64,000 nt of DNA from Thalassia testudinum (lineage: Eukaryota > Streptophyta > Magnoliopsida > Alismatales > Hydrocharitaceae). Shown here one piece after another: positions 3,653-52,761 of the stretch. Under the pieces are notes generated by a model. The model worked only from the letters and a program-made list of their open reading frames with translations. It did no database searches and was not told the DNA's origin. Location: positions 55,357,501 through 55,421,500 of the forward strand of contig JAZHRO010000012.1 in assembly GCA_037157565.1 (NCBI GenBank), read 5' to 3'. The translations under genes were made by a program, and so were the position numbers. The number at the start of each line of letters is the position of its first letter. The stretch's first letter is position 1.

Positions 3653-4299
3653 TGAAATTCCCTACTTGGAGGGGGTGACGTCAGTGTGACGTAAAAAAAT
3701 GCGTAATTGAAATATAAACAATCTCACAAATAGTCAATCACACAAAGTACACAAGTATTTTTAGGTGGAAACCCAAACCGGGTGAAAACCACCACCTAAC
3801 CCTCTCGAGTTAGGATTTTCCGATCAACCTAGTTGATCAAATCCACTAACCGAATCACTTTAAACGAGGGTGATTCAACCTCAGTACAACCACGCTACAA
3901 GTACGAGGGTAGCGTTCCTCAACCCCTTCTCTCCACGAGAAGGATTTTGTCCCACGAAGGAGACGGGAATTCGCAAAGCGAATACCCAACCAAAAGACAA
4001 AGATAAAATAAAACAACAGGTCCTATAGAGCCAACAAAGTAATTATAAACCTAAGCTTCTATAGGAATTAGGAAACTCCCCTTTGCAAGGAGTGCGTCGA
4101 CGATGACGCGGGTGCGTGAGCCACGCAACGGCGCAATGTCGCTCTCGTGAACAACGGTGGGAGAGCGGGTGCGCGAAGACTTGATGCTCTCAAGGGAATG
4201 GAGCTCAAGCTTGGAGAGCAAGATCTTTTCTGGACACAAAAGAGTGTGAAAGTGTGTAGCTAAGTGTATCCAAGTGTGTTTTGGTGTTGCAAAGGTTCC

Positions 4300-4315
4300 C
4301 CTCTATTTATAGAGG
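4300..4315 (-). promoter_or_regulatory. TATA box in a palindrome (Sirevirus LTR)
   Basis: The sequence is CCTCTAT-TT-ATAGAGG, a perfect 7-bp inverted repeat that contains the TATA box (CTATAAATAG in element sense). It occurs at the same place in all four Sirevirus LTRs of the window. It lies downstream of the AGACGTCT array in element sense, as expected for a core promoter at the U3/R boundary. Confidence 0.65.
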
Positions 4316-4434
4316 CCTTAGGAAGGCTTTGGAAGGCTTAGGAAGGGTTGTATAGCCGTTGGGTGCAAAGCCCAAGAGAATCAGGCCAAAATCAGGACAA
4401 TGATTACATTTGAAAGGGTCATCAGACGTCTAAT

Positions 4435-4961
4435 TCTGGCATCAGACGTCTGGAAGGCCACTTTAAGACGTCTGATCTCAAGGTCAGACGTCTGATTCTA
4501 TGCGGGTTTCCTCCTGACTTGAATCAGATCTAAACAGGGTTTTTGTTCAAGTTGATCAGACGACATACAGGACGTCTGGCACTATGCCCGGACGTCTGGA
4601 AACCAACTTTTCCTACGGAATGGATTTTCCAACCGTTGCAACGGCTAGAAAATCTCTGAGAAGAGATTTTGGGTCAGCCGAGGCAAAACGGTCAATTATC
4701 AGACGTCTGGTAAGTCCTATGGACGTCTGATAAGGCTCTAACGGTCATATACTGCCGTGCTTGCTAAGTTAGCCAACGGTCCACTATCTGGACGTCTGGC
4801 AAGTCCATCAGACGTCTTCTAAGACGTCTGGACTAAGGTCTGGACGTCTGATTTCATCAGACAGAAAACTAAGTCCAACCTAAATGGTTATCAGACGTCT
4901 GAAACAACAGTCAGACGTCTTAAAATACTTTATCAGACGTCTGATTTGGGAATTAGACGTC
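4435..4961 (-). repeat. Dispersed AGACGTCT palindrome array
   Basis: I count about 16 GACGTC hexamers in 527 bp, usually extended to TCAGACGTCTGA or CAGACGTCTGG, at irregular spacing of roughly 15-80 bp. Chance expectation is well under one. The array lies in U3, upstream of the TATA palindrome. Sireviruses of other plants are known to carry repeated palindromes in U3, so this is probably a cis-regulatory array; the role is inferred. Confidence 0.8.
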
Positions 4962-5377
4962 TGGAAGTGCTGTTTGAGCCCTATATTGGTTTTCTAAGTA
5001 TTCTACAGAAAACCTAAGTATCCTAGGGTTGTGCAGGTGTTCCTAGGACTACTTTTAGGGTTCTTTGAGGCTCTTTAACATAATATTCTAAGAAAATAAA
5101 AAGAGCAAGAAAATAAAGACAAGAGATACAAGAAAGGATTAAAAAGAATCTATCATATTCTTCTTGTCTTCTATCTTCAATCTGTCGCTCCACGCGAACC
5201 TCCTCTGTTTTCCGTCAAGCTCCTCCAATCCGTCCTGGATGCGAGCTCGAACTCCGTTTAAGCACGTCTACATTTGCAATTGACCTGAAATCTAGGACTC
5301 AAATTGCAAATGTTAAATAACACGTGTTTTGTTATCATCAAAATAAATGATCGTGGTGCTCTAGCACCAACATCCAC

Positions 5378-6407: not shown

Positions 6408-9122
6408 TGTTACGACCCGGTTCTCGTATCCCTATAGGACCCGAGATCGGCTCACCTCGACTAATCTCAAGACCCAGTCGTCCAACAAGAAATAACAAAA
6501 AAGCAGGAAAGTAAACCACATTCACACATGCAATATAACTAAGCAGTAAAAACGTATAAAGTAGTAAAGGAAAGTAATACTACTGTTCCATTACATACCA
6601 CCACAACAACAGAAACAACGGAAGCGAAAGTAACAGTAACAAGAACAGTAGCTAAAAGTTTGAAACTCACTACAACAGTAAAGGGGTACAACAAAGAAGT
6701 GTAGAAAACTACGGTTGGGCTCGATTGGGCCTAGCACCCTCCGCAGTCGGAAGCTCGGGCTGCTCAACTCCTGGACTTGAACAGTGTTATGAAAAAGACA
6801 GAGTCAGCGAACGCTGAGTAGAGTGGTATCTATACTATCTAAAGCAGTAAAAGCAACATGTTTAATTCTCTTTTCTATTTATTTAGTTTTTATGTGCATT
6901 TCCTTTTCACCCATTCTTCTCAATATCTAGATATTCTTGATCTCACATGTTCCTCGTGGGAACGATCTTGATTGTAGTCTTTTCCAAAGAGTAGAAGGTA
7001 CACGTGGTGCTTTCTTGGCCGGGAGAGTCCCCTGTGGTAGTCTTACACCCAGTCAACCACCCCGAGGTCACTGACAAGATGTAGCGGTGACTACGACATG
7101 CGTGATAAGCGCATGGGTAGCTATCCCGCACTGACACGCGGTCAGTCGTTTCCGTTAGCGGGTACATTCAAAGTACAACACAGAACAGTATAGGACCTAA
7201 CCCTCTCAGAAACAGGGGTCTTGCCCATCAGAACTAAACAGGGGTCTCACCTTTCCACAGTCCGTGCACTCTCGTCTGACTACCCCAGTTTGCCCAGAGG
7301 GCCTAACAAGTCAGTGTAGGGTGGCTAGCTGAACCCCAGGACATGTGGGGTGGCTAGGTCCCTCCATACACTAGTAGCTCGCCTCGGTACCGTGTACACG
7401 AGGGCCAACAGAAGTTGGTGTAGAGTGGCCAATCCTAACCCCAGGTCTTAACCCAAGGGCGGCTAGCTCCGCTCTACACAAAAAGGGGACAGTCGCTCTC
7501 CTTGGTACCACATACTCAAGGGCCAGCACACTTCCCGTCTACATTCCAGATTTTCCATCTAACCATAGGAGCTCTACTCCTAATTCTCCGTAGGGTTCAT
7601 GCTCATGTTCACCACATTATTCCGATCCAGATTCTACCATTCACAATTCAGTTCTCGTTTATATACAGGCAGCTCATGTTTCCACAATTCAATACATGCA
7701 ATTGATGATTTCATAGGTAATTGTTCATTTATCTCAGGCATCTTATATTCTAATAGGCAGCTCACAACTATATTACAGGCAATTGCTAGTAGTTTAACTT
7801 AATCATGTATACAAATACAATCATGCAGTACAATTGGTTTATTCATTTCTCTGTCCTAGGGTTCATGCCACATCTTAGGATTTCCAGTTGGCTAATTCCA
7901 CAGACACATTCTTATTTAATATGATTAACAGAAGTAGACCACTCTACCAGACAATCAGGGAGTAATGGGGGCTCGAACTGTAGACCCAGGCGTCTCTGCG
8001 AGCCCCAAACACGTAGTAGGCCGAAACCCCATACCAGGGAAGACATCATAAAAGGAAGGTTCAGAATAGTGTACAAAGGTTTCTAGTACGTAGAGAAACT
8101 TGCAAGGAAACTACAGATACTTTGTTTGTGTAAAACAGATCCCGATCGGATCCCAAATAGGTCCAAAACGTGTCTACTGACTAAAATCAGACATCTGGCA
8201 ACAAGTCCAGACGTCTTAAAAGATACAGAACCTCACCTCAAGTCCCTGCGGTGTCCTCAGACGTCCAAGACTCCTCTGTGATCGTCTGAAGGCAGTTTTA
8301 GACGTCGGACCACTCCTCCGGTCGTCTGGAAGCACCTCCGGTCATCTGGTGAGCTGATCAGACATCTGAAAGTGCATGGGAGGGCATTCTGCGCTCCTTC
8401 CCAAGGCTGCTCCTGCGTACGACAGTTGCAGCCACCCAAATCAGGCACAACACATCTTCTGCGGTGTAGCCTGCATGGCCGTAACTGCGAAAAGAACGTA
8501 CCTTCACGATAAACGAGCTTTCAGACATCTGGTCTTGACTCCAGACATCGAGATGCTTCGCCAGTAATCCGGACTTCGCTCCAGATGTCTGATACTGAAA
8601 AATTTCTAGTATCAGAACTCGCTCCCAGCTCTCTCTGCGATGCTTCTCCTCGCTACGCTGCAGCTCCAGCTACTTCAGGTGGTCGAGGACGCCTCTCCGG
8701 AGGTCTCTCCTCCTTCCACACGCTCCCACGGTGGCCATGCGAGCTTCAACGAGCTTCCACCGAAGCTCCCAACCTCAGCCTCCTCCTCCTCCTCCTGCAC
8801 TCTCCTCCTTCTTGCCCTCGTGCTCTCCCTCGCTCGCCTCCTTTCGCCGCTCCTGCATGCTATGGAGGTGAAGGTGGTGGTGTGTGGAGTGGAGAGGAGA
8901 GGAGGGGAGAGTGGCTTTTATAGAGGCTGTGGGGTTTAGGGTTCGGTAGGGAGAAGAGCAAAGAGAGAGAGAAAGGGTCCTGCGCGTCGCTCGTGCGCAA
9001 GGTGCATTATGCGTACAGAAATTTCATTTTCAGACGTCCGGGAAAGGGTCCAGACGTTTGGACAGACATCTGACTGAGACTCTAGATGTCTTAAAAGGCT
9101 AAAAGTGGGACGGGTCTTTACA
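6408..9122 (-). mobile_element. Solo LTR of the Tekay (T1) family
   Basis: The + strand begins TGTTACGACCCGG and ends CGGGTCTTTACA, the same termini and layout as the two LTRs of T1. It is flanked by a perfect 5-bp duplication, TAAGG (6403-6407 and 9123-9127), so this is a 2715-bp solo LTR with no internal sequence. A minus-strand TATA box (CTATAAAAG) lies at about 8915-8925. AGACGTCT-type palindromes, many decayed to AGACATCT, lie on both sides of it at about 8190-8590 and 9030-9095. Open frames such as those around 8585-8940 fall in this GC-rich LTR and are not genes. Confidence 0.93.
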
Positions 9123-9127: not shown

Positions 9128-9660
9128 TAACAAGTTTAGATGGGTAAGTAGCAAATTCAAGAGGAACTTAATCAATTAACCATACATTTCATGAGGTAAA
9201 ATCATCTAAACTTGGGTGAACTTGAGGTTCCTTGAACTATGATGGTTCACGAATGGCACTACTGAGATTGAGCTAGAATTGGAGATTTCTCATTGATAGC
9301 AATAGGTTGTGAACCAATCACTAAGACTCATAGTTAAAATTACTTGAGGTAGCAACCCTAGTGATATATATAAGTGACGATGAAGCTAGGGTACCTTCAA
9401 AGTAGAGATTTGAGCTCATCCTAGACAGTAATAGATTTAGGCACATTTGTGCCCTACCTCCCACCTTCTCCACCCCAGTAGTTGCCCCTCCACCTTCCCC
9501 ATTCTCCCCTGTCATCACCCCTCCTCCTCCCTTTTTTCCCTAAGTCATCATTGCTTGACCTCCTCCCTCTTTCATAGCCATCACTACTCCACCCCCTCTA
9601 TCCTCTTCTTCAGCCATTACTACCTGTTAATAGGGCTATTGGGGAGGTTTAAATATGTTT
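9128..9660. other. Unclassified stretch with a pyrimidine-rich tract
   Basis: About 9440-9620 is strongly C/T-rich on the + strand. No gene is recognisable. The next element (X1 LTR) probably begins at 9661, but its outer edge is uncertain. Confidence 0.35.
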
Positions 9661-12379
9661 TGTTGTAGCAAAATCTTCTAAATCAACAAATATAATTTAT
9701 AACTCGAATATCTAAAATGAAGTCCGAGGTCAAACACAGAGAGAAAGTATTGCAATTCACACACTAATCAAGATGAATATGTAAATGAGCATAAGAAGTT
9801 AAGCTAATAATGATATTCAATGAATAATCTCTACTCAAAATTGATATTCAACGCATAACATGAGTATATCAAGAGTTGAAGAGGATAAAAAGAAACCTAG
9901 AAGAAAATAATGGTGATTTAGATCACTAATTATTAGTCTAAGCACATATATATCAATTACTTAAATATATAAATGAACAGTGGCTTGAACCACTTAAGCT
10001 AAATTCCACGTATCAAATATATCCACAGTGCTGTGCTTAAAGGCTCATCAGACGTCGGCTTTGGCAAACAGACGGCTTAAATGTCATTGCTACAGTACAT
10101 GCACAAGCCTTTCTTCTCCTCTTCTTCTTTCCTTTAGCCTCTTCCTTTGCATAGGGCCTTTTCTTCCTTTCTTCCCTTCTTCTCAGGGCCTTCGCCTTTT
10201 TCTTTCTTCAAAGCCTTTTCTCTTCTTCTCTTCTCCTTCCTTCTTCTTTCAGCCAATACCTTCTTTCTTCTCAGCGACTAAGTGTTGCGTAATGCCTGCA
10301 AGAGCAAAATCCTCCCCTCCACCGCTCTCTCTTTCTTTCTTGCCTCTTTCTCTCTCAGATACAGGTTGTAACCGGGTATTTGGGTCAGAGCAATATTGGG
10401 TCTAGGCTCACCAACAGTGGGTGATGAGCGAGGAGTGAAGGGCTTAGGTGGATTTGGGTCATGCGGGTAAGGGGACCTCACCCCCGATGTCTGAGGTGAT
10501 AAGCCTTAGGCAAAAAATCAATTTATGCCACTATGTTGCTCTCAACTCCCACGATGTGGGACTATCAGCCCACACCTTCTTCACGCGAGTGCAGCAGAGG
10601 GCTTCTTCGTTAAATTAACATTGAAGTCACGGATGAGGCCTCTAATTGAGGACCTGGGAAGGGTCCTAAAGAGTATCCGTGTCACCTAGAGGTTGCGCTT
10701 GGAGCAGCTATGAACGGAGAACTAGATGCGTGGTCGGAAAACTTGAAGGCGACGACGGAGAGACGGCGAGTACCTGAAACACTAGATAAGGCCTCACGGT
10801 TACATTAAAATTGCTTAAGAGCTTTTCCTGGGCTTGGCGAAGTTGGTGGTGGGTGTTTCATGGCAGTTGAGGGCGTGTGGTGGTCTGCAGAGGTCGAAAG
10901 ATGACGTGTGAAGGTGAGTTGTTCGGTGGGTGGTTTAGGTGGTTGATTGACGGAATTAGAAGAGGGATTTTGATCGTGGTGGTGTGGCAGAGCTTTTGGA
11001 GTAGGTGGCGAGGTGGTTGGAGGTGTGTGGTGTGAGATGGACCTTGTCAGAGGTATGGCCAGAGGTGGAGACAAAGGTGGTGAATGGCGTGTCGAGGGGT
11101 TGAATTTGGGTTTTAAATAGAGGGAAAGATAATAGAGGGAGAAAGAGACCTAGCTAACCTACTCAAATGGACGAAAGGGTAGAAGGGACACCAAGTTTGG
11201 TGTGGCCAGCACCATGGAAGGAAGTGCCTCTGGTGGGAGAAGTGGCGACGACAAGGGGGTGTAGGTGGCAGCCGCTGGTATTGCGACGTGTGGAAGAAGC
11301 TGATGAAGAAGAATTCACCTGCTATTGTTTGTGAGGGTGGACGAAGAAGGTGGTCGGAGGAGGTCACCGGAGCTCGTGGAGCATTTGGTCTGAGAGGAGG
11401 GAAGAAGGAGGTATTCCAGCCAAAAACAAGTTAAAGGGGTGAGGAAGGCATCTTGGGTTCTTTTATAGGGCTTAGGAGAGCTCTAGAACAGGAAACAAGC
11501 TTCATTAGCTTGCTTATGATTCAAGAAGAAACCCACTGATTTCGTGGGTTCACGCACATGAATCAGAGGGATTTGGGAGTTAGAACCAATCCCAACAGGT
11601 TTCCCTACGTGCAAACATCAATCCCACCAAATTTGGTGGGATTTGATTGAGATTCGAGTGGGATTTGGCTTGGTCAAAGCCTACTTGGAGGTTAGTTGAC
11701 CTCCAATGGTGGTAGGGACCAATTTACGAAGAAGATGAAGAAGTTGGGGGGCTTTTTGTAAGAATTTCAAAAGTTGAGGGGCCTTTTGTAAGAAAAAGAG
11801 TCAAAACATGATTAAAATGGAAACTAGGTCAAGATGATCTCAGATTGGACCCAAATTATGGCACAAACCTAATTTGGACTCAAGGAATCTAATGGTGAAG
11901 TCAAATTTTGGTTTTGATTAAGTTTGACTGGGTAATTTATGTAAAATCCCAAATTAAGGAATTATTTGTCTGAGACTCTGTTTTAGGTCAAATTGAGTTC
12001 AGATGGCCAAATCAAGGATACCAAACTTAGAGAATTTTTTTTTATGATTTTTAGAAGGCTTAGATAAATTTTATCCTGACCAGAACCTCAGTTAATTATG
12101 CATGTCTATTTTTTGGATTTCAGATGTTCATTAATTCTTAAAATGCATGAAAACCGATTTCGTTATGCATGAATCCACTTATTAGACATTAATGATCATT
12201 TGACCTTTAATAAACCCCTCAAATACCCCATGGTTATTCTGTATTTATGGAATGCTATTAATTTTGCAGAAATAACCTTGTATTCTTCTCTTCTTTCCAA
12301 AACAGGATAATGTGCCCTTAGGACCTTTTGATGGATATGTAGGAGCTTTTATCAACCTTATCAGACCGGTGTTCCCATA
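9661..12379 (-). mobile_element. X1 element: 3' LTR, larger part
   Basis: This is an LTR of an OTA-type element on the minus strand, interrupted at 12379/12380 by element Y and continuing at about 40673-40794. It shares landmarks with the OTA solo LTR at 42682-45424: a pyrimidine-rich stretch (about 10100-10350), a TCACC-rich block near 10390-10490, a GTAGGAGCT motif near 12340, and the leader-like GAGGTCAAAC block near 9730. A likely minus-strand TATA box (CCTATAAAAG) is at about 11461-11470. The outer edge at 9661 (TGTTGTAG, like X2's TGTTGTGA) is a best guess; an alternative is 9625. Confidence 0.65.
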
Positions 12380-14741: not shown

Positions 14742-17527
14742 TGTTACGACCCGGTTTCCGAATCCCTACAGGACCTGAGACTGGCTCGACTCAACTAATC
14801 CCAAGACCCAGTCGTCCAATGAGAAAGTAACCAAAATGCTGGAAAGTAAACCACATTCACTATGCTAAGCAACTAACAGTAAAAAGGTACAGCAGTAAAG
14901 AAGTAAAAACTACTACAGTACATATCACCATCACAACAGTAGAAACGTAACAAGAAACAGGAACATAAAGTACAGAATGTAAAAGTACGGAATATAAAGG
15001 TACAAGCGTCCAACTCACTACTACGAGGAGTACAACAAAAGAAGCTACAGCTACTGGGCTCAGCACCTTCTGCAGCCGTAGACTCGGGCTGCTCAACACT
15101 TGGACCTGAAAAGGGGTTATAAGTACACAAAGTCAGCGAACGCTGAGTAGAGTGGCAACCAACTAACTAAAGCAGTAAAAGTGGACAAGTAGCTGTTGTT
15201 TTCCAATTACATTATTTCACAAATTATTCCTTTTCACCCATTGGTTTATTTCTTAGATCTCTTTCTTGATCTCAAATGTTCCTCGTGGGAATGATCTTGA
15301 TTACAGTCTTTTCCGAAGAGTAGAAGGCACACATGGTGATCTCCTGGTTGGGAGAGTCCCCCGTGGTGATCCTACACCCAGTCAACCACCCCAAGGTCGC
15401 AGACAAACATAACGGTGACTACGGCATGCGCGATAAGCGCACAGGTAGCTACCCCGCACTGGCACGCGGTCAGTCATTTCTGCTAACGGGTGCACCCAAA
15501 GTACAGCACGGAACAGTATAGGGCCTAGCCCTCTCAATAACAAGGATCTAGCCCCTAAGAACCAAACAAGGGTCTCGCCCCTCCATAGTCCGCGCACCCT
15601 CGCTTGACTACCATGGTTTGCCCAGTGGGCCTAACAAGTCGGTGTAGGGCGGCTAGCTGAACCTCGGGCCCAGTGGGGTGGCTAGCTCTCTCCCTACACT
15701 AGTAGCTCTCCCCGGTATTGTGTACGCGAGGGCCAAGAAGTCGGTACAGAGTGACCAATCCTAACCTCGGGTCCCAACCCAAGGGTGGCTAGCTCCGCTC
15801 TGCACTAAACAGGGGATAGTCGCTCTCCTTGGTACTACGTACTCAAGGGCTAGCTCACTTCTCCACTCACATTTCCACATCCATTCCATTTATTTCCAAG
15901 AGCTCTACTCCTAATTCCCCGTAGGGTTCATGCTCATATTCCTCATGCCATGCCATACCAGGTTTCATAATTTCTATTTTCATTCTAAGGTTATACATAT
16001 GCAGCTTGTATTACTATCGTTCACATTTCCATACTCAGGTTACACACAGGTAGCTCGTATTTCCATCATTCACATTACCATTCTCAAATTATATACATGC
16101 AGCTCGTATTATGTCATTTAACGTATACAACAGAAAAGTTACATGCAACAGTTAGTACTTCATATTTCACAGGCAGTTGTTATTCATTTATAGGCAATTG
16201 TTATCATTTCTATTTACTCATTCAAGACTGCAATTCAATCATCCAATACAGACATTTCCAGTATTTCTCGTCCTAGAATTCATGCCATATCCTAGGTTCT
16301 AATCATTCATTTCACACATGTATTCATGTTTGTAATTAAATTAGGGGAAGCCACTCTACCAGTAAACCTAGGAGTATTGGGGGCTTGAACGGCAGACTCA
16401 CATGCCTTAGTAAGCCCCGAATCCGCAACGGAACGAAGTCCTATAATAAGGAACAATCACAATGGAACATTCAGAATAGTATAGAAAGCCTTCTAACAAT
16501 TAGAGGAACTCACAAGGAACACATTGGTATCTTATTTGCGGAAAACAAACCTCAAACGGACCCTGAACGGGTCAAAAATAGGATTTCTGACTCAAATCAG
16601 ACGTCTGGAACAACTTCCAGACGTCTCAAAAGCGTCCAGTATCATATCTCAAGCTTTGCACCAATCCTCAGATGTCCAGGAACTCTTTTGGATCATCTGG
16701 ATCCAGCTCCAGACGTCCGACCACCTCTCCGGACGTCTGGACGTGCTTCCAGTCGTCTGGTAAGCTCCCCAGACGTTTGAAATTCATGGGAGGGCGTGTC
16801 CCGCGCCTTCCTGAAGTGAATCTTGCACACCACCACCAGATCTTCTCAAAAAGGGCATGCAAAGAGAAGCTACGGAGTGGCCTGCATGGCCGTATCTGCA
16901 AAGGGAATGTACCTTCGCAAAACTCTCACCTCAGACGTCTGGAATCGTCTCCAGACGTCCGCACCGACGTCTGGAGGTTACTCCAGACTTTTGATTCTGG
17001 GAAAAACCTAGAACCAGAACCTGTTTCCGCTGCGCTCGTGCCGCGCATGGCCACGCCTCGCCCCCTCTCCTGCAGCTCTAACTACAGCAGTGTCAGGGAG
17101 GACTCCCCCGACGCACTCCTCCTCGCACACGTGTCGCTTTGGCCGTGCGCTCACAGGTGAGCTCCCACGCGAGCTTGTGAGCTCACTCTCCACCTCCTCT
17201 CCTCACGTCGCTCCTCCTTGTCATCGCTCTTGCGCTCTCGCTCGCGTTGGCTCTCTCACTGGAGTGGAGAAGAAGAGGGGAAGGGGGCCAATGTGAGGAG
17301 AATGAGAGAGGGGAAGGGGTTTTATAAGGTCGGGGGTTTAGGATTTGTTGGAGGCGGGGAGAGAGAGAAGAAGGGGAGGAAAAATGAGAGTACTGTCTAT
17401 GTGCAGCTCGCGCGTAGACGTGAGCTCATACTGAAAATTTTTGATTTCCAGACGTCTGGGAAGGTGTCCAGACGTCTGACCCATAGTTCAGATGTCTTAA
17501 AAGGCTCAAATAGCACGGGTCTTAACA
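14742..17527 (-). repeat. T1 3' LTR
   Basis: This 2786-bp LTR matches the split LTR at 22484-38410 throughout. It holds AGACGTCT palindromes at about 16599-17000 and 17450-17490. At 16599-16626 two palindromes form a perfect 12-bp stem (AGACGTCTGGAA) closed by a CAAC loop. A minus-strand TATA box (CTTATAAAA) lies at about 17322-17331. Only 11 nt separate the chromodomain stop codon from this LTR, and I see no clear polypurine tract there. Confidence 0.92.
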
Positions 17528-17538: not shown

Positions 17539-17934
17539 TTAAAGAGGACCGAAGCTGATCCGAAAAGACTTACCCTCAAAAAGCTCTGGGTAATGCTCTT
17601 GCATCGCCGCCTCAGGCTCCCAGGTAGCCTCCTCGTACCTTTGGCTCCTCCACAAGACCTTCACCAGGGGTACCTGCTTCCGTCTCAAACTCCGAACAGC
17701 TCTGTCTAGTATCTGCACTGGTCGCTCGGGGTAGGTCAGGTCGTCACCCACCTCGACACTCTTGTGGCTCAGAACATGATTGGGATCGGCGACGTACTTC
17801 TTGAGGTTGGACACGTGGAACACGTCGTGCACACCAGAAAGCTGGGGAGGAAGGGCAAGCCTGTAAGCAACGGGTCCAACCCGCTCCAGGACCTCAAAGG
17901 GCCCCATAAACCTCAGCGCGAGCTTCCCTTTCAC
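17539..17934 (-). pseudogene. T1 integrase C-terminus with chromodomain
   Basis: This frame follows the integrase core after a frameshift near 17970. It begins in the GPY/F-type region ([25 protein letters not shown]) and the HVSNLKKYV motif. It ends in a chromodomain-like segment with VKVLWR and EEATWEPE, then MQEHYPELF. Chromodomains at the integrase C terminus define chromoviruses and are thought to guide insertion into particular chromatin. The frame ends 11 nt before the LTR. Confidence 0.85.
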
Positions 17935-18032
17935 CCAAAAACGCTACAGGATCTTCATGGGCGAAACGGAAGAAAGACGTGATCCCCAACCTCGAATTGC
18001 ACCTCTCTGCGCTTCTGATCGGCATAACTCTT

Positions 18033-24116: not shown

Positions 24117-26807
24117 TGATGAGAACCTCATCATGAGTCATAACTAGCTCATTTTTACCTAATACAGAGGATAAAAGCTCCTACATAACTCAAGGAAAGG
24201 GTTAACTCAGAGAATTCTGAGTTTAAGAAGAAAACAAGTCATAAGGGGTAAAAATGCAATTTTACCAGTACAATCTGCAAACAGGGTAACTCAGGATCCA
24301 AACATAGGTCAAACTAACGTAATAAGAAGGAAAGTGGGATGATCTGATCTGATAAGGGATACAGCAACTCCGAGGAATTAAATGATAATCTGTAATCCTA
24401 AAACAAATCCACTCCAATTCGTGAGGTTCGAGGCAAAGAAAAATCTACTAAACCCTCTAAAATTCATATAAAAATAATCTGTAGGGTCTAGAACCTTCAA
24501 TTTTTCCTTAGAAACCCATTTTGACCTACATTGAGAACCATGCCCAATTAATAATTTAATTTGGGTTTTTACATAAATTGGCCGGTCAAACAAGGTCTGA
24601 CCTAGAAATAAAATTTACCATTAGAATCCTTAGGTCCCATTTAGTCATGCATAAAAACTTGAGCCTAAGAAGAGACCTTCTTGACCGACTTTGCATTTTG
24701 GTCCTCATCCATTACATTTTGACCCTCAACTTTTGAAATCCTCACATTTTGGCCCCTAGGTCTTCATCATTTTTGCATTTGGGTCCTCCCTGCAAAACCC
24801 TGAGCAGCGCCATGCTCCGGCGAGGCATGGCGCCGCGCAGGGTGAGGGGGGCCCTCTGCCAGTTGAACGGGGTGTTCCCTGCGACGCTTGCTGTCGCAGG
24901 GACACCTCCACGATCTCTGCCATCACCCACACCTTCCGTGCGAATGCGTGGAAGGTATGGGTTGCAATCTGGCCATCCTCCGGCGAGGGAGGCACGTCGC
25001 CTCCCTCCGCCCTCATCTCTGATTTTGCCTCTATAAAAGCCTCCCCCATCTGTCGAACTCAGTAGCTCGATTCTGATGGAGAATCACCCACAACTTTCCA
25101 CTCCTCCCATACAGGCAGGCACCCAGTGAGCTCCGGCGAGCTCCCTTTCCTTTCCTCTTCGCTCTGCCACAAAACCAGTGGCAGAGACTTCTTCCTGATT
25201 CTCCTCCGCGTCGCGCAATACCCGCGCGCACTGCTTCAGCCCCGTAGTCGCCGCCGTCCTCCCCCACTGGGTATCTTCTTCTCCGGCGACAGTCGATACG
25301 ACTGTCGCCCTGCTCCTCCCCCTTCGTCCCTGCAAGTAAGTTAGAACTACTTCCCTTCCTCTCCTCTTTCTTTTCCCTATTTCAATTTGTTCAATTAAGC
25401 CCTCGACTGACCCTGACCACTGTCACCCCCTTCGTCTCTGGCTACCCTCCGACGAGACGCCCCCATCGCTCCATAGCCTCACACGCCTCGCCGACCCTCA
25501 CCGAACCTCCACCTCATCACACTGAACACCCCCCACCCCTCCACTGCCACTCCACACCTCCATAACGCTCCCCCGAACAAACCCATTCCCCCGGCCACAG
25601 TCCGACCTAGGGCAGCCCCTACACGCCGCCCCACACCTCGCCACCACCCACACGAGCTTCGCCGCACTCCGGCGAAGCTCCCTGCACCTTCTGACTAGGC
25701 CGAGAGGCCGTATCTCTGTGAACAGGTTACCCGTCCTCCGCCGCCATTACCGAATAGGTGAAGATTCTTCAACCTGCAGCTGCAGCTCCACTCCCGCCCA
25801 GGCCTACGCTCCAGGACGCGCGGATTGCAACCACGCAGCTGCCCAGGCCTTTAGCTGAAGAAGAGACCTCAGAACGTCCGCGATTGCCTGCAGCTTTCTC
25901 AGCTGCAGGCGCCAAATTGGGGTGGGACATTTAGTCCCACCTCGGAAGATTTCGAAGCGCCGCACCGGTATAAATTGTAAAAGTGAAACGGACTATTCGC
26001 CTCCAAACGCACCGGGGTGAGGTCCCGCGCCCACACCTGCCCAGTCCGCGAGCTCACCACGCGGATCCGGCGGACCTGACCTGACACCCCACCTGCGCAC
26101 TCCTCGCGTACCATTCACGCCGGTACTCCTGGTCACGGGTACGAAACCCGACCCGATTACCCGGCGGCTCTGGGAGAGCTATCCTATGTGCGAAGTCTGA
26201 GAAAGAGAGAGACGTTCGGGTAGAGGGAAAGGGGTAGGTTTTGCGTTGGCTGTGGTGTGTGCAGGAACAGGCCGAGGCAGAGAAGAAGAAGGCCGACGAA
26301 GAAAGACTGAAGGAAGAAGAAGGAGGAGCACCAAGCAGCACTGTAGCAGCGGTGATTTAAGTCGTCTGATTGGAAAATCAGACGACGCTCTGCAGAGGAA
26401 GAAAAGAAGAAGAAAGAAGAAGCCGTGCAGTTGAGCAAGGCAAAGGGACCGCAAGGCAGAAGAGTTCTGCAGCTGAGGCAGAAAGAAGAGAAGATAAAGG
26501 GAAGAAGACGAGAAGCTCTGAAGAAGAAAAGAAATAAGAAGAAGTAGAAGAAGAACTGAAGGTAGAAAAGAAGAAGATAAGCTAAGAGAGAGAAGAGAAG
26601 CCATAAGACTTAGATTTATTTCTCCCTCTCTCTCTCTTATTTTTTTTTTGTAATAGAAACCTTGTACTTCTAGAATACAACTTGCTCCCTGAGTTCGACC
26701 TCAGGAACTCTTTTTCCGAGTAACAAATTGTATTAAACTGGTAACTACTTCTCTATGCTATACTACGACGAAATAATAAAACTATAGAGGAGTTTTGCGT
26801 CTCACCA
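24117..26807 (+). repeat. A1 5' LTR
   Basis: This 2691-bp LTR starts with a 17-nt hairpin (TGATGAG-AAC-CTCATCA) and ends GTCTCACCA before the primer site. A TATA box is at 25031-25039. A purine (GAAGAAG) tract lies at about 26280-26590. A hairpin at 26361-26386 has an 11-bp stem (GTCGTCTGATT) and a GGAA tetraloop. TATACTACGACG lies near the 3' end (26759-26770). It differs from the 3' LTR at scattered single bases (several per 60 bp in places I compared) and by one large deletion in the latter. Confidence 0.93.
25031..25039 (+). promoter_or_regulatory. A1 TATA box
   Basis: CTATAAAAG lies in the GC-rich part of the 5' LTR about 0.9 kb from its start. The matching segment is missing from the 3' LTR, so only the 5' LTR retains a recognisable core promoter. 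Confidence 0.55.
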
Positions 26808-26812
26808 GTTTT

Positions 26813-26830
26813 TGGCGCCGTTGCCGAGGA
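26813..26830 (+). promoter_or_regulatory. A1 primer-binding site (tRNA-Asp type)
   Basis: TGGCGCCGTTGCCGAGGA lies five bases after the LTR. It matches the complement of the plant tRNA-Asp 3' end as I recall it (TGGCGCCGTTGCCGGGGA) with one change. This primer is typical of Athila/Tat elements. Confidence 0.88.
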
Positions 26831-35001: not shown

Positions 35002-37239
35002 TGATGAGAACCTCATCATGAGCCATAACTAGCTCAATTTGACCTAATACAGAGGATAAAAGCTCCTACATAACTCAAGGAAAGGCTTAACTCAGAGAAT
35101 TCTGAGTTTAAGAAAACAAGTCATAAGGGGTAAAAATGCAATTTTACCAGCACAATCTGCAAACAGGGTAACTCAAGGTCCAAACATAGGTTAAACTAAC
35201 CTAATAAGAAGGAAAATGGGATGATCTGATCTGATAAGGGCTACAGCAACTTCAAGGAATTAAATGACAATCTATAACCCTAAAATAAATCCACTCCAAT
35301 TTGCGAGGTTCGAGGCAAAGAAAAAATCTACTAAACCCTCTAAAATTCATAGAAAAATAATCTCTAGGGTTTAGAACCTTCAATTTGTCCTTAGAAACCC
35401 ATTTTGAACTACATTGAGAAGCATGCCCAATTAATGATTTAATTTGGATTTTTACGTAAATTGGCCGGTCAAACAAGGTCTGACCTAGAAATAAAATTCA
35501 CCATTAGAATCCTTAGGTCCCATTTAGTCATGCATAAAAGCTTGAGCCTAAGAAGAGACCTTCTTGACCGACTTTGCATTTTGGTCCTCATCCATTACTT
35601 TTTGACCCTCAACTTTTGAAACCCTCGCATTTTGGCCCCTAGGTCTTCATTATTTTTGCATTTGGGTCCTCCCTGCAAAACCCTGAGCAGCGCCATGCTC
35701 CGGCGAGGCATGGCACCGCGCAGGGTGAGGGGGGCCCTCTGCCGGTTGAACGGGGTGTTCCCTACGACGCCTGCTGTCGCAGGGACACCTTCACGATCTC
35801 TGCCATTGCCCACACCTTCCGTGCGAACGTGCGGAAGGTATGGGTTGCAATTCGGCTACCCTCCGGCGAGACGCCCCCATCGCTCCATAGCCTCACACGC
35901 CTCGCAGACCCTCATCGAACCTCCACCTGATCACACTGAACACCCCCCACCCCTCCACTGCCACTCCACACCTCCATAACGCTCCCCCGAACAAACCCAT
36001 TCCCCCGACCACAGTCTGACCTAGGGCAGCCCCTACACGCCGCCCCACGCCTCGCCACCACCTGCACGAGCTTCGCCGCACTCCGGCGAAGCTCCCTGCA
36101 CCTTCTGACTAGGCCGAGAGGCCGTATCTCTGTGAACAGGTTACCCGTCCTCCGCCGCCATTGCCGAACAGGTGAAGCTTCTTCAACCTGCAGCTCCGCT
36201 CCCTCCCAGGCCTGCGCTCCAGGATGCGCGGATTGCAACCACGCAGCTGCCCAGGCCTTCAGCTGAAGAAGAGACCTCAGAACGTCCGCGATTGCCTGCA
36301 GCTTTCTCAGCTGCAGGCGCCAAATTGGGGTGGGACATTTAGTCCCACATCGGAAGATTTCGAAGCGCCGCACTGGTATAAATTGTAAAAGTGAAACGGA
36401 CTATTCGCCTCCAAACGCACCGGGGTGAGGTCCCGCGCCCATACCCGCCCGGTCTGCGAGTTCACCACGTGGATCCGGCGGACCTGACCGGACACCCCAC
36501 CTGCGCAGTCCTCGCGTACCATTCATGCCGGTACTCCTGGTCACGGGTACGAAACCCGACCCGATTACCCGGCGGCTCTGGGAGAGCTATCCTATGTGCG
36601 AAGTCTGAGAAAGAGAGAGACGTTCGGGTAGAGGGAAAGGGGTAGGTTTTGTGTTGGCTGTGGTGTGTGCAGGAACAGGCCGAGGCAGAGAAGAAGAAGA
36701 AAAGCGAGGCAGAGAAGAAGAAGGCCGACGAAGAAAGACTGAAGGAAGAAGAAGGAGGAGCACCAAGCAGCACTGTAGCAGCGGCGATTTAAGTCGTCTG
36801 ATTGGAAAATCAGACGACGCTCTGCAGAGGAAGAAAAGAAGAAGAAAGAAGTTGCCGTGCAGCTGAGCAAGGCAAAGGGACCGCAAGGCAGAAGAGTTCT
36901 GCAGCTGAGGCAGAAAGAAGAGAAGATAAAGAGAAGAAGACGAGAAGCTCTGAAGAAGAAAAGAAATAAGAAGCAGAAGAAGAACTGAAGGCAGAAAAGA
37001 AGAAGAAGATAAGCTAAGAGAGAGAAGAGAAGCCACAAGACTCAGATTTATTTCTCCCTCTCTCTCTCTTATTTTTTTTTTGTAATAGAAACCTTGTACT
37101 TCTAGAATACAACTTGCTCCCTAAGTTCGACCTCGGGAACTCTTTTTCCGAGTAACAAATTGTGTTAAACTGGTAACCACTTCTCTATGCTATACTACGA
37201 CGAAATAATAAAACTATAGGGGAGTTTCGTGTCTCACCA
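35002..37239 (+). repeat. A1 3' LTR, with internal deletion
   Basis: It is 2238 bp and colinear with the 5' LTR except for about 470 bp missing at 35851-35870. These correspond to 24971-25440 of the 5' LTR. The breakpoints share GGCYAYCCTCCGRCGAG-like sequence, which suggests recombination between short direct repeats. The lost segment includes the TATA box. A small extra GAAGAAG unit is present near 36690-36715. Confidence 0.92.
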
Positions 37240-37244: not shown

Positions 37245-38410
37245 CTACCAGTAAACCCAGGAGTATTGGGGGCTTAAAAGGTAGGCTCACGTGCCTCAGC
37301 AAGTCCTGAACCTGCAACGGAACGAAGTCCTATAACAAGGAACAATCACAATGGAACATTCAGAACAATATATAAAGCCTTCTAACAATTAGAGGAACTC
37401 ACAAGGAACACATCGGTATCTTATTTGCGGAAAACGGACCTCAAACGGACCCTAAACGGGTCAAAAATAAGGTTTCTGAGTCAAATCAGACGTCTGGAAC
37501 AACTTCTAGACATCTTAAAAGTGTCCAGTATCATACCTCAAGCTCTGCGCCAATCCTCAGGCGTCCAGGAACTCTTCTGGACCGTCTGGACCCAGCTCCA
37601 GATGTCCGACCACCTCTCCGGATGTCTAGACGTGCTTCCAGTTGTCTAGTAAGCTCCCCGATGTCCGAAATGCGTGGGAGGGCGTGTTCCGCACCTTCCC
37701 TAAGCAAATCCTGCATGCCACCAGCAGATCTTCTCAAAAAGGGCATGCAAAGAGAAGCTGCGGAGCAGCCTGTATGGCCGTATCTGCAAAGGGAACGTAC
37801 CTTCGCGAAACTCTCACCTCAGACGTCTGGAACCGCCTCTAGACGTCCTCACCGTCGTCTGGAGGTCACTCCAGACGTTTGATTTTGGGAAAAACCCAGA
37901 ACTAGAACCTGCTTCTGCTGCACACGCGCTGCGCATGGTCGCGCCTCGCCCCCACGCCTGCAGCTTTGGCTGCAGCAGCGTCGGGGAGGACTCCCCCGAC
38001 GCACTCCTCGTCCTTGCACACGCGCCGCTCTGGCCGTGTGCTCACCGGTGAGCTCCCACGCGAGCTCGTGAGCTCACTCTCCATCTCCTCTCCTCACACC
38101 GCTCCTCCTCGTCGCCGCTCTAGCATTCTCGCTCGCGCTGGCTCTCTCGCTGGAGTGGAGAAGAAGAGGGGAAGGGGTCCAGTGTGAGGAGAACGAGAGA
38201 GGGGAAGGTGTTTTATAAGGTCAGGGGTTTAGGGTTTGCTGGAGGCGGGGAGATAGAGAAGAAAGGGAGGAAAAATGAGAGTACTGTCTGCGTGCAGCCC
38301 GCATGCAGATGAGAGCTTGTACTTAAAATTTTTGATTTCCAAACGTCTGTGAAGGTGTCCAGACATCTGACCAGACATCTTAAAAGGCTCAAACAGCATG
38401 GGTCTTAACA
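37245..38410 (-). repeat. T1 5' LTR, part 2
   Basis: This continues the LTR cut at 24116, after the second CCACT (37240-37244). It ends GGGTCTTAACA and is followed by the right TSD copy AAGAG (38411-38415). A minus-strand TATA box (CTTATAAAA) is at about 38212-38220. The palindromes here are more decayed than in the 3' LTR (for example AGACATCT). Confidence 0.93.
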
Positions 38411-42681: not shown

Positions 42682-45424
42682 TGATGATCGATGGATTTCG
42701 CGACAAGATCATGTTTTCAAAATATATTTGTTGTAGTATCATCGCGAAAACGATTATCAAAATTTTTTATTACTCGAAATTGAAAAAAACTTTCGAGGTC
42801 AAACTCAGGGAGCAAATTGGTATTTAGAAGTCAAAAAACACAAAACTTGAAAGATAATGTTTAGTAATAATGCACTGTATATAAAGGCTAGAGAGTAAAA
42901 ACATAAAAAGAAATAAATTCTTTTTCTTTTCTTACTTCTTCTCCTCTCTTTCCTTTCTTTAGATGTCTAATTCTGTGAATCAGACACCTTAAGTGGTGAT
43001 CTGCTACAGTGCTTCTTCAGCCTTCTTTGGCTTCTTCTTCTTCTTCTTCCTACTCTGCTGCAGCTCTTTCCTCCTCTTTTCTTCTTTTGGCTTTCCTCTT
43101 TGGCTCCTTCTTCTTCTCTTCTTCAGCTACTGCGCCTCCTCCGTCTTCAAGTCCTTCTTTCTTCTTCAGTTGCCCTTCTTCTTAGGCTCCTCCTTCTCTG
43201 CCTTTGGCCAAGTCCTTCTTCTGGCTTCTTCTTCCTTGGCCTCTATAGACTCCTTCCTCTTTCTCTTCTTCTCCGCAACTGCTTCCTCTTCCTCCTTCTT
43301 CCTTGCACAGCACAGAGCAGCAAAACCTACCCCCTACCCTCCCCGCGTCTCTCTCTCTATTTCTCTCTTCGCTCTCTCAGAGCTAGCCGGGTAATTGGGT
43401 TGGGTTACACATGCTCGGGTCCAGGCACACCGGCGTGGGTGGTGCACGAGGAGTGCAAAGTAAATGGGTCAACCAGGTCTGCGTAGGTGTGGTCGCAGAC
43501 GAGGCAGGTGGAGTGAGCGAGGGACCTCACCCCGTGTTACTTGAGGCGACGAGATAAAAGCACAAAATCAATATAAGTGACTCACCTACATTGAGAACTT
43601 CTGAGGTGGGACTAAAGTCCCACCTACTTCTACTTGCGTGCCTGCAGGAGGCTTTCCTTCGATTGCTATGGCTAGGTGATTTGCTAGGCCAATTTCCTGG
43701 CAGTGTGCATGTGCGAGACCAAGCCACGCCTTCTAGACCTGGGGGCCTAGAGCGCTGGGGCCTGGAGAAGCTTGCAAGGAAGCTTCGGGTTGTCACTAAT
43801 GGCGGCGAAGGCTCACACCTGAAACACACGAACACGGCCTCGCGGCCCTGTCAAATGCCTTGGGGAGCTTCGCCAAGGTGTGGCAAATGTGCAGAGGTGG
43901 TCGACGAGGCGTGAGAATGCCTGTGGGAGTGTGCCTAGGGCACACTGTGGATGTGCAGGTGGGTGTGTTCGGGGGAAGATTGTGGGACGTGTGGTGGTCG
44001 ATGGAGAGGGGAGAAATGATCAGTGGAAGGTGGTGGAGCTTCTGAGGGGTTTGGCGAGGTGGATGGAGGCGTGGAGAGGTGGGGATACCTTGTCGGTGGT
44101 CTGGCCGGAGGTGGAGAAGGTGATGGTGGATGCGCGATTTGTGAAATTAATAAGGGAAAAATGAAGAGGGAAGGAAGAGGACTTAACTGAGGTGTTTAGA
44201 GCAAAGGAGGGAGGCGGAGGGCGGGCAGTGGTGTCTGCTGTCGTCGGAGACGAAGGCCTTGTGGGGAAGAAGCGGTGACGAGGAAGAGAGGCGGAGGGTG
44301 CATGCTGGTACGGCGCGATGCGGAGGAGCATGGCGGAGATGGCTCTGCCACTGGTATGGTGGTAGAGCGACGAGAAGGGGGGAGAGTCGCCGGAAGCTAT
44401 CGGCAGTTGGCCAGAGTGAGGAGGAGACGAAATTGGGGGGTAATCTTTGGCCAAATTAGGTTTGAAGGAAGCAGAGGGGTCTGGGCTTCCTTAAATAGGC
44501 AAGGTCCGAGGGAGGAGTCGCGAGGAGACGGCGGGAAAACCATGCTAGTGGTAAGGCCAGAGGGAGACTCATACCTCTCGAGCATTCGCACGAGAGGTAT
44601 GGGGTGTTTCAGGGCATGGGGAGCTGCCCATGCGGTAGGGGGCTTCGTAGGTAGCTCCCCTTTCAAATCTGGGAGCGGCTCCCCATGAGATCGAGGAGAG
44701 AACCTCCGAGCAAAGTCGTCGGAGGTATGGGTCCTTGTTGCAATGGTAGAGGGACCGAAATGAATAAAGAGACGAAGAAGTTGGGGGGGGATTTGCAAAG
44801 GTTTCAAAAAGTTGAGGGTCTAAATGTAATTTGGTGGACAAATTTGCAAAGTGGGTCAAGACGACCTTCCCTTAGGTCCAAATTTTGGTATAAACCTAAG
44901 TTAGACCTAAGGAATCTAATGGTGAAGTTGGATTTTAGGTTTGACCACGTTTGACTGGATATTTTGCACAAAAACTTAAATTAGGTGAAATATTAGGCAA
45001 GGACCCTAATTTAGGTTAAAATAGGTTTCAAAGGCCAAATTGAAGGTTATAAACCCTAGAGGATATTTTTCCATGAATTTTAGAGGGTTTGGTTGATTTT
45101 TATCTTACTTGAAACCTTGTGAATTTAAGCGGATTTGTTTTAAGGTTACAGAATGTCATTTAATTCCTAGATTTTACAATAACCCTTTTCTGACTGAACC
45201 ATCCCACTTTTTCTCTTATTAAGTCCAATTGACCTATGTATAGACCCTTAGAAATCTCGTTGATGCACTGCAATGGTAAAATTGCAGTTTTACCCCTTAT
45301 TTTATATTCTCTTCCCAAATTAGTGTTTCCTTGAATCAAGCGTTTCTCTTGGTTATGTAGGAGCTCTTGTTCTTTTTATTAGGTCAAAATATGCTAGTTA
45401 GGGCTCATGATGAGGTTCTCATCA
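42682..45424 (-). mobile_element. OTA solo LTR inside X1
   Basis: In element sense it starts TGATGAG-AAC-CTCATCA at 45424, like A1, and ends near 42682. The flanks are TGCAG (42677-42681) and TGCAA (45425-45429), a TSD with one mismatch. X2 reads uninterrupted through the same point (about 60540), which confirms an insertion. It has the GATACTACAAC motif (42729-42741), a GAAG-rich tract (43010-43300 in complement) and GTAGGAGCT near 45357. Frames inside it (for example 44020-44454) are not genes. Confidence 0.82.
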
Positions 45425-46472: not shown

Positions 46473-47490
46473 TGTTGGTGCTAGAGCACCACGATCATTT
46501 ATTTTGATGATAACAAAACACGTGTTATTTAACATTTGCACTTGGAGTCTTAGATTTCAAGTCAATTGCAAATGTAGACGTGTTTAGACGGAATTCGAGC
46601 TCTCATCCAGGATGGATTGGAGGAGCTTGATGGAGAGAAGAAGAGATTCGCGAGGAGCGATATATTGAAGAAGGAAGGAGATGAAGAATAGGATAGATTT
46701 CCTTCTCTTGTACTCATTGTATTTTCCATTTCTTTTGTTGCTCTTTATTTTTGTTACTTAGATTTCTGTTAAAGAGCCTCAAAGTACCCTAACAGTAGTC
46801 CTAGGAACACCCGCACAACCCTAGGATACTTAGGTTTTCTGTAAAGAACTTAGAAAACCAATATAGGGTTCAAACAGAGTTTCCAGACGTCTAATTCCAA
46901 AATCAGACGTCTGATAAAGTATTTTAAGACGTCTGACTGTTGCTTAAGACGTCTGATAACTATTAGGCTGGACATAGTTAGTTCTGTCTGATGAAATCAG
47001 ACGTCCAGACCTTAGACCAGACATCTTAGGAGACGTCTGATGACTATGCCAGACGTCCAATTAGTGGACCGTTGGCTGGCTTAGCAAACACGCAAGAATA
47101 TGACCGTTAGAGCCTTATCAGACATCCATAGGACTGTCCAGACGTCTGATAATTGACCGTTTTGCCTCGGCTGACCCAAAATCTCTTCTCAGAGATATTC
47201 TAGCCGTTGCAACGTTTGAAAATCCATTCCCACAGAAAAAGTAGGTTTCCAGACGTCCAGACATAGTGCCAGACGTCCTATATGTCGTCTGATGGACTTG
47301 CGCTAGAACCCTATTTAGATCTGATTCAAGTCAGGAAGAGACCCGCCCAAAATCAGACGTCTGATGCCAGAATTAGACGTCTGATAAGCCTGTCAGAGCA
47401 ATGATTATTCCTGATTTCAGGCTGATTCTCTTGGGCTTTGTTCCCAACGGCTATAGAACCTTTCCTAAGCCTTAAAAAGCCTTCCTAAGG

Positions 47491-50268: not shown

Positions 50269-51998
50269 TGTTGGTGCTAGAGCACCACGATCATTTGTTT
50301 TGATGATAACAAAACACGTGTTATTTAACATTTGCACTTGGAGTCTTAGATTTCAGGTCAATTGCAAATGTAGACGTGTTTAGACGGAATTTGAGCTCGC
50401 ATCCAGGACGGATTGGAGGAGCTTGATGGAGAGCAGAAGAGATTCGCGAGGAGCGATATATTGAAGAAGGAAGGAGATGAAGAATATGATAGATTTCCTT
50501 CTCTTGTACTCATTGTATTTTTCGTTTCTTTTGTTGCTCTTTATTTTTGTTACTTAGATTTCTGTTAAAGAGCCTCAAAGTACCCTAACAGTAGTCCTAG
50601 GAACACCCGCACAACCCTAGGATACTTAGGTTTTCTGTAAAGAACTTAGAAACCAATATAGGGTTCAAACAGAGTTTCCAGATGTCTAATTTCAAAATCA
50701 GACGTCTGATAAAGTATTTTAAGACATCTGACTGTTGCTTAAGACGTCTGATAACTATTAGGCTGGACATAGTTAGTTCTGTCTGATGAAATCAGACGTC
50801 CAAACCTTAGACCAGACGTCTTAGGAGACGTCTGATGACTATGCCAGACGTCCAATTAGTGGACCGTTGGCAGGCTTAGCAAACACTCAAGAATATGACC
50901 GTTAGAGCCTTATCAGAAGTCCATAGGACTGTCCAGACGTTTGATAATTGACCGTTTTGCCTCGACTGACCCAAAATCTCTTCTCAGAGATTTTCTAGCC
51001 GTTGCAACATTTGGAAATCCATTCCCACAGAAAAAGTAGGTTTCCAGACGTCCAGACATAGTGCCAGACGTCCTATATGTCGTCTGATGGACTTGCGCTA
51101 GAACCCTGTTTAGATCTGATTCAAGTCAGGAAGAGACCCACCCAAAATCAGACGTCTGACCTTGAAATCAGACCTCTTAAAGTGAACTTCCAGACGTCTG
51201 ATGCCAGAATTAGACGTCTGATAAGCCTGTCAGAGCAATGATTGTTCCTGATTTCAGGCTGATTCTCTTGGGCTTTGTTCCCAACGATTATAGAACCTTT
51301 CCTAAGCCTTAAAAAGCCTTCCTAAGGCCTCTATAAATAGAGGGGAACCTTTGCAACACCAGTGCACACTAAGAAAAGCAAAAGACACACTTAAGCAACA
51401 TAGTTCCACTCTCTTGTGTCCTAGCTAGCTCTTGCTCTCCAAGCTCATGCTCCATTCTCTTGAGAGCATCAAGCTTCGCGCACCCGCTCTCCCGCCGTTG
51501 TTTACGAGAGCGACATTGCGCCGTCGTGTGGCACACGCACCGTGTCATCAACTCGACGCACTACTTGCAAAGGGGAGTTTCCTAATTCCTATAGAAGCTA
51601 GGTTTATAATTACTTTGTTGGCTCTATAGGACTTGTTGTTTCTTTTATCTTTGTTATTTGGTTGGGTATTCGCTTTGCGAATTCCCGTCTCCTTCGTGAG
51701 ACAAAATCCTTCTCGTGGAGAGAAGGGGTTGAGGTACGTTACCCTCGTTTAAGTAGCATGGTTGTATTGAGGTTGAATCACCCTCGTTTAAAGTGATTCG
51801 GTTTAGTGGATTTTGATCAACTTGGTTGATCGGAAAATCCTAACTCGAGAGGGTTAGGTGGTGGTTTTCACCCGGTTTGGGTTTCCACCTAAAAATAATT
51901 GTGTACTCGTGTGATTGCTTATTTGTGAGATTATTTATATTTCAATTCCGCATTTTTTACGTTACGCTAATCTCACCCCCTCCAAGTAGGAACTTTCA
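50269..51998 (+). repeat. Sirevirus element 3' LTR
   Basis: It is 1730 bp and nearly identical to the 5' LTR, with the 42-bp unit (51151-51192) absent there. The TATA palindrome is at 51328-51343. It ends AGGAACTTTCA and is followed by CGTGT. Confidence 0.94.
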
Positions 51999-52003: not shown

Positions 52004-52761
52004 GCCTGAAGGCCATTTAGTTATCATTCCTCACCACTATCACCATCACTGCCACCACAGCCACGCACCAGTAGCCAACCCCCACCATTTAAGACATCTG
52101 GGAATGTTCCCAGACATCTAATCTCCCATCAGTGTCTTCTTCTTCATCTCCTTCTACTATTGCTCAAGGAACCCATCATCACCACCGCACCTCTCACCAC
52201 GCCGCGTCCTCTCCTCGCCTGCGCACACCCAACAGCAATGCCCTTAGCTGCTACACGCAACCATCTCTGCGACCACAGCGCGACCAGCCCTCCTCGCACG
52301 CGCCCGCACAGCCTACGGCCCCCCTCCTCCGCAAGTGGCATCCACCTGCATGCAACCCTTGAGCAGCGCTACGCCCCCTCGCTATAGACCGCGCGCACCT
52401 CCAGCAACTCCCGTGTCCCCTTCAGTAGTGCACAGCACCTCTTCTTCCGCCTGCGGCCCACAGCAACAGCACCTGCGGCCGCGCTCAGCAGCTTCCGTGC
52501 ACGTGCCTGCACGACCCACGCACGCCCTCGCTGACCCCTCCAGTAAGCACGCGGGCATCTGACGCCCCTTGCGTGTGCACCTTCGCGAGCGCCACACCAG
52601 TAGCAGCAGAGAGTTGCAGCCACAGCCACCCGCTGCCACTCCTCACCTCCGATTGGCCACCTCCAGCCATGCCATGCCTCGCCACCACCACCAAAAGAAG
52701 TGGCCTGCAGTAGCTACCTTCGGCGAGATCCTGCTCTCCGGCTTTCGCCTCTCCATGCGCG
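52004..52761. other. GC-rich segment of unknown origin
   Basis: This continues 46180-46472. It is C-rich on the + strand with many short chance frames. At 52091-52123 it has TTTAAG followed by two AGACATCT copies around CTGGGAA-TG-TTCCCAG, the same module seen in the LTRs. It joins the A2 integrase abruptly at about 52762. It may be part of a diverged LTR. Confidence 0.4.

Follow-up and report, generated by a model that had tools for sequence, protein, structure and literature searches.

A short palindrome, AGACGTCT, arranged in pairs whose starts lie mostly 20 bp apart, is found in the LTRs of both copia and gypsy retrotransposons of Thalassia testudinum. The carriers seen are Sireviruses (copia), chromodomain-bearing chromoviruses and Athila-type elements, and the pair is probably a double site for one dimeric DNA-binding factor. 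A sequence-only reading of the 64-kb stretch analysed here (the window), which consists of nested LTR retrotransposons, had reported palindrome pairs in several LTR lineages. That observation was borne out for Sirevirus and chromovirus LTRs by the number and the spacing of the palindromes, the sites in the Athila-type (OTA) LTRs of the window being weak, and the phenomenon is larger than was described.

Palindrome Pairs in the Window

Exact AGACGTCT occurs 47 times in the window, against a mean of 0.56 in 100 shuffles, none of which reached 47. By element limits, 37 of the 47 lie in Sirevirus LTRs and 8 in chromovirus LTRs, the other two being located at 55986, in the LTR-like stretch X3, and at 803. 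The core is mostly CAGAC-GTCTG. When up to one mismatch is allowed, the distance recorded most often within 80 bp is 20 bp (45 counts); next come 42 bp (14), 32 bp (13) and 52 bp (9), with lesser numbers at 62, 22, 12 and 72 and few at 40, 50, 51, 60, 69-71 and 41; we infer that the main distances are close to whole helical turns.

The spacing was also evaluated for each LTR alone by counting pairs with at least 13 of 16 matching bases in S1, S2, S4, T1, T2 (37240-38410) and T3, with S3 excluded. In every one of these LTRs 20 bp is the leading spacing, and the count was reached in none of 2000 dinucleotide shuffles. Applied to the internal regions of T1 and A1, the same test revealed zero such pairs. 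In five LTRs, 50 of the 56 palindromes with at most one mismatch have a 20-bp partner with at most two (S4 16/16, S2 13/14, T1 12/12, T3 8/12, A1 1/2). T3 is less regular, and distances of 41, 50 and 60 are also present there. The nearest distances up to 60 bp in S4, S2 and T1 are 12, 20 or 22 bp, except for one of 52 in S4 and one in S2. An order of pair, 4 bp and pair (20-12-20) was observed at 525-577 of the Sirevirus LTR and in both chromovirus subfamilies (T1 536-588, where the first palindrome is decayed, and the start of T3), and the loops of the Sirevirus and chromovirus units are seemingly unrelated.

Table 1. Palindrome arrays, single sites and one associated domain, with window positions.
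Feature	Position	Strand	Remarks
Sirevirus LTR S1 (3653-5372)	array 4424..4962	-	8 palindrome pairs at 20 bp
Sirevirus 5′ LTR S2 (46473-48161)	array 46885..47382	+	7 pairs; TSD CGTGT; PBS 48164
Sirevirus 3′ LTR S3 (50269-51998), same element as S2	array 50680..51219	+	8 pairs, several decayed
Sirevirus LTR S4 (57698-59423)	array 58108..58647	+	8 pairs at LTR 411-950, upstream of TATA at LTR 1063
Chromovirus 3′ LTR T1 (14742-17527)	palindromes 16599..17497	-	12 with no more than one mismatch, each having a 20-bp partner
T2, outer part of the 5′ LTR of the T1 element (37240-38410)	pairs 37488..38380	-	decayed pairs; TSD AAGAG
Chromovirus LTR T3, second subfamily (6404 to about 9120)	pairs 8189..9091	-	palindrome pairs
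Chromodomain and integrase SH3 domain, T1 element	17539..17943	-	PF00385 2.5e-7 with PF24626
Athila A1 5′ LTR hairpin site	26360..26387	+	AGTCGTCT-N12-AGACGACG variant; 16 fetched copies retain it with point changes
Athila A1 3′ LTR, counterpart of the 5′ hairpin site	36792..36819	+	as in the 5′ LTR
Athila-type LTR A2 site	42961..42989	-	decayed, spacing 21 bp; the genome has exact relatives at other places
Third Athila-type LTR site	10050..10077	-	decayed
X3 LTR-like stretch	pairs 55966..56116	.	two 20-bp pairs, without clear conservation in a relative of 75% identity
Decayed single pair AGACATCT-N12-AGACATCT	52092..52119	.	in an unassigned stretch

Elements Carrying the Pairs

The Sirevirus copy bounded by S2 and S3 (46473-51998) contains a copia-type gag at 48199-49581 (460 aa, PF14223 3e-27, one CCHC) and seven polypurine tracts at 49992-50260 before the 3′ LTR, the terminal tract counted in. 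Its attachment site is GGGGGAG-AT-TGTTGG (terminal PPT, AT and TG), with a flanking 17-nt inverted repeat having one mismatch. No pol domain was found between its LTRs in the domain scan, and the copy is possibly a non-autonomous deletion form which has kept gag and the replication signals. The search with the gag frame returned relatives in plants and metagenomes, the closest on short contigs. The TTTAAG side of the pairs had been described as always facing in the same direction; this is wrong for Sirevirus, where S4 has it forward at 58150 and backward at 58598.

The chromovirus class was assigned by a chromodomain at the integrase C terminus, the name Tekay being an earlier label. The chromodomain gypsy element extends over 14742-38410 on the minus strand, and its 5′ LTR is split by an Athila-type element at 24117-37239 (TSD CCACT). 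Within the T1 LTR, pairs are located at 31-71, 536-588, 750-810 and 902-922, with TATA at 202. T3 and T1 are 79% alike across 1,237 aligned bases in the other half of the LTR.

Three Athila-type LTRs of the window have one site in common, which follows a conserved stretch like GCACTGTAGCA and consists of (T)TTAAG and then a decayed pair. The A1 LTR contains one 20-bp pair, a number reached in 21 of 2000 shuffles, and 9141-14736 likewise contains one (5 of 500 shuffles); 38416-46472, with the A2 site, contains zero pairs at 20 bp and one at 21 bp. A1 presents the order gag-PR-RT-RH-INT, with no chromodomain match in the six A1 frames scanned, and the PBS TGGCGCCGTTGCC, a sequence linked to Athila, is present. 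An Rfam match to snoR71, a C/D snoRNA (44.1 bits), lies at 28343-28450 on the minus strand, where it overlaps the start of the A1 gag frame on the opposite strand; this stretch could be a captured or chance snoRNA-like sequence.

The two 20-bp pairs of X3 form a count which 1 of 2000 shuffles reached. For X3 (54482-57697), whose part 55965-56200 had earlier been assigned to OTA, such an identity found no support in the comparisons, and the host element could not be placed in OTA; the relative at locus L018 indicates that the stretch runs on beyond the S4 insertion. The segment 54482-57697 and the sequence from 59424 onward are one unassigned element interrupted by the S4 LTR, the L018 relative being 75-77% identical. 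At the other end of the window, a lone AGACGTCTTAAAA at 803-810 falls within 1-3652, where four frames scanned gave no Pfam hit.

Genome-Wide Distribution

In the genome (4,261,771,670 bases), AGACGTCT-N12-AGACGTCT gives 212,299 exact pairs, against 6 for the pattern read backwards as control, and since a few amplified families supply the counts, these pairs are not independent events. One base wider (AGACGTCT-N13-AGACGTCT, 21 bp), 896 matches were obtained (control 3). The oriented form with TTA before and GAT after the pair, TTAAGACGTCT-N12-AGACGTCTGAT, gives 34,797 + 34,864 = 69,661 matches (control 0), and loops of Sirevirus and chromovirus type are both present among the places listed, all on contig C1. 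Among these listed matches, Sirevirus-type modules are often oppositely oriented, about 405-430 bp apart.

Eight overlapping loci with the exact pair, drawn from four neighbourhoods on contig C1, all match the Sirevirus and/or chromovirus LTRs of the window. Of eight further places, fetched for their unusual-looking loops, six look like chromovirus, one is Sirevirus, and one is Athila-like, judged by context and weak matches; L049 was counted as chromovirus on two short matches only, of 58 and 53 bp. A random genome sample of 10 stretches of 10 kb contained 2 exact palindromes, too few for use. In viral contigs one stretch with an exact pair was encountered, together with no confirmed relative of the RT in a search that may omit records of this genome.

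The weak Athila-type sites of the window have well-preserved counterparts elsewhere. The A1-type variant AGTCGTCTGATT-GGAA-AATCAGACGACG is retained with point changes across 16 fetched copies. The exact Athila form, TTAAGACGTCTGATT-N5-AATCAGACGTCT, gives 149 forward and 124 reverse matches, 273 altogether (control 0), of which, among the places listed, five are fetched Athila places and the others are Athila by pattern alone. Ten places with 21-bp spacing were fetched: eight contain exact palindromes and resemble the window's Athila-type LTRs, one matches the chromovirus, and the last has no window match of at least 50 bp. The presence of the module in OTA LTRs, claimed earlier from single, decayed sites, is poorly supported by those window sites; it is borne out by the exact modules in the genome.

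Conservation of the Palindromes

Between the Sirevirus lineages compared, 2/102 to 3/114 palindrome positions outside CpG differ (2-3%), a palindrome being counted if recognisable in at least one copy, which gives a slight bias toward conservation. For the loops the corresponding figures are 10/84 to 15/96 (12-16%) and for other non-CpG positions 111/1330 to 165/1341 (8-12%). The palindromes are 4-6 times less different than the rest of the LTR (palindrome versus other positions, p 0.0006 to 0.0095 in five comparisons). Indels number 0-1 in 224 bases of the pair units versus 12-20 in the roughly 1,190 bases beyond the array. The two LTRs of one Sirevirus element show no such gap (1/102 palindrome versus 22/1348 other positions, p 1), which places the constraint before insertion. 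In two LTR pairs that have diverged since insertion, CpG positions of the palindromes changed fast (5/34 and 10/38), as did other CpG (14/120 and 43/178), in line with methylated DNA.

In the chromoviruses the contrast is in the same direction, more weakly: 26/112 palindrome versus 264/763 other positions differ between T1 and T3 (p 0.018), p is 0.083 for T2 and T3, and the contrast between palindrome and loop is not significant (p 0.28).

A Probable Double Protein Site and Its Alternatives

The unit consists of two identical 8-bp palindromes with starts 20 bp apart, about two DNA turns. It is probably a double site at which a single dimeric nuclear factor recognises the palindrome, so that two dimers would lie on the same face of the helix. 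Sirevirus and chromovirus LTRs have arrays of such pairs near their promoters, and Athila-type LTRs have one copy in the places seen. The S4 pairs are upstream of the S4 TATA box, and the T1 pairs are on either side of the first T1 TATA box. The factor might be encoded by the host, or by one lineage and used by the others, and its binding may affect LTR transcription or silencing. The earlier suggestion of a bZIP protein, drawn from the ACGT core alone, would provide a candidate. A shared factor fits the core and the spacing held in common, and it fits palindromes that are conserved where the Sirevirus loops are not. A protein pair accounts better than a hairpin for the one constant distance and for Sirevirus loops that vary freely; Athila is compatible with both. 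A pure protein-site model has no need of the longer stems into which some pairs extend, chiefly in Athila, and the Athila spacing of 20 or 21 bp is a further point against it. Symmetry within a single palindrome and the bases beside it does not exceed that obtained with shuffled partners.

The rival reading with most in its favour, though we regard it as unlikely, is that each pair forms an 8-12 bp stem in RNA or single-stranded DNA, read in the element RNA, for structure, packaging or dimerisation, or by the host small-RNA machinery. The three stems quoted earlier (T1, Sirevirus and A1) do fold as stated, and stable stems were obtained in four folded modules (z -3.1 to -5.4). Athila arms reach 11-12 bp with a loop of 4-5 nt, the genome-wide Athila pattern itself requiring arms. 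In addition, Sirevirus palindromes of maize are small-RNA hotspots, according to the accessible text of two reports (PMC5311732, PMC10760457).

Pairing beyond the palindromes was evaluated in many tests, and the p values given here are uncorrected. Stem extension beats within-family shuffles with p 0.009 for five positions and 0.05 for four, the whole range being 0.009 to 0.06 depending on the positions chosen. In 18 independent loops it falls short of significance (p 0.06-0.14), as it does in Sirevirus alone (p 0.07) and in chromovirus alone (p 0.13). One chromovirus site gives p 0.02-0.04 for positions 3-4, but p 0.08-0.68 for positions 3-5 and p 1.0 for positions 1-2. On the Sirevirus sense strand, A-C mismatches number 48 versus 17 for G-U (32 sites, four related copies), and in chromovirus they number 22 and 22; moreover, a hairpin does not require one exact loop length. 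Taken together, the tests give weak support to compensatory hairpin evolution. The term hairpin module, as used earlier, is apt for the folding and less so for the functional form.

A less probable alternative still is module transfer: a unit of roughly 36 bp would have passed from one lineage to another through template switching or gene conversion, with later multiplication inside the LTRs of Sirevirus and chromovirus. The oriented TTA and GAT edges are common to Sirevirus-type and chromovirus-type pairs (69,661 oriented matches against 212,299 exact pairs), the TTA edge is also present at Athila sites, and one Athila-like copy, L046, has both edges. However, outside the palindromes the best match between Sirevirus and chromovirus modules (8 × 15 sites) is 15 of 26 positions, no better than in column-permuted modules (mean maximum 15.2, p 0.75), the permutation keeping the make-up of the edge columns and being silent on the six TTA/GAT bases. 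Homology of the whole module is thus not supported. Sirevirus and chromovirus modules have the palindrome and its spacing in common, and the TTA/GAT edges partly so. A shared host factor, convergence and transfer by recombination had all been offered as interpretations; transfer of the whole module finds no support in this comparison, and the shared factor agrees with core, spacing and conservation. The alignment that had been proposed to separate homology from convergence shows modules no more alike than permuted ones outside the palindromes, and it fits both convergence and an ancient shared module of which just the functional positions have survived.

Functionless chance or mutation bias in repeat-rich DNA can hardly be credited: founder copies were amplified along with their families, but this reading is already contradicted by the shuffles (0/2000 for six LTR stretches), by the backwards controls (6, 3, 0 and 0) and by the conservation of palindromes between but not within elements.

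Returning to the double protein site, one regulatory protein, or else one hairpin-reading mechanism, may serve LTR elements of this genome that are otherwise dissimilar in that region. In its boldest form, which we put forward with more doubt than belief, three LTR lineages from copia and gypsy would have arrived by convergence at one 20-bp palindrome-pair code. A single trans-acting factor would read this code, as a shared switch for regulation or anti-silencing that perhaps belongs to one lineage and is exploited by the others.

Comparison with Known Systems

The closest known system is that of the RM boxes of Sireviruses (Bousios et al. 2010), described in the accessible text as palindromic, present in at least eight copies per element and located mostly in the upper LTR half upstream of TATA (PMC2829016). 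The Thalassia palindromes are alike in position, palindromy and copy number, and S4 has 16 of them within LTR 411-950, upstream of its TATA. The Usier box GTCGGACGTCCGAC holds the octamer GGACGTCC, which differs from AGACGTCT only at the two outer bases (PMC2829016). RM boxes have a CGG-CCG core, which the Thalassia palindromes lack, as does Tnd-1 (PMC2829016), and a fixed 20-bp pairing, found in Thalassia, is not among the RM-box features described in that accessible text. The RM motif is termed there specific to Sireviruses, and the classic (copia) elements in the comparison do not have it, whereas the Thalassia palindrome is also present in chromovirus and Athila-type gypsy LTRs.

Two other systems are comparable by the accessible parts of their reports. 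In maize the palindrome CACCGGAC-NNN-GTCCGGTG is found in Copia and Helitrons (PMC10760457), likewise one palindrome in two unrelated transposon groups of one genome, but with a Helitron as the second carrier instead of gypsy LTRs and no fixed pair spacing described in that text. The target motifs of VANC proteins in VANDAL transposons are likewise short motifs arrayed in non-coding element DNA, and the VANC6 motifs are also present in the unrelated AT9TSD1 (PMC5735166). VANDALs, however, are DNA transposons with a known element-encoded reader, and their motifs are not termed palindromes in the text accessible (PMC5735166), whereas the reader of the Thalassia pair is only presumed.

Among the matches listed in a literature search, with most subscription papers outside its scope, there was no paper dealing with this palindrome in LTRs and no report of a palindrome pair common to Sirevirus, chromovirus and Athila LTRs. 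The palindromic boxes of Sirevirus LTRs were described in 2010 and their reader has not been identified in the parts of the literature covered; the sharing with gypsy elements directs the search to one factor, for which one genome supplies about 212,000 exact natural target pairs. It also points to possible co-regulation or co-silencing of unrelated retrotransposons. Palindrome boxes as such are known from Sireviruses, and what is new in Thalassia is that one sequence and its spacing are common to gypsy lineages as well.
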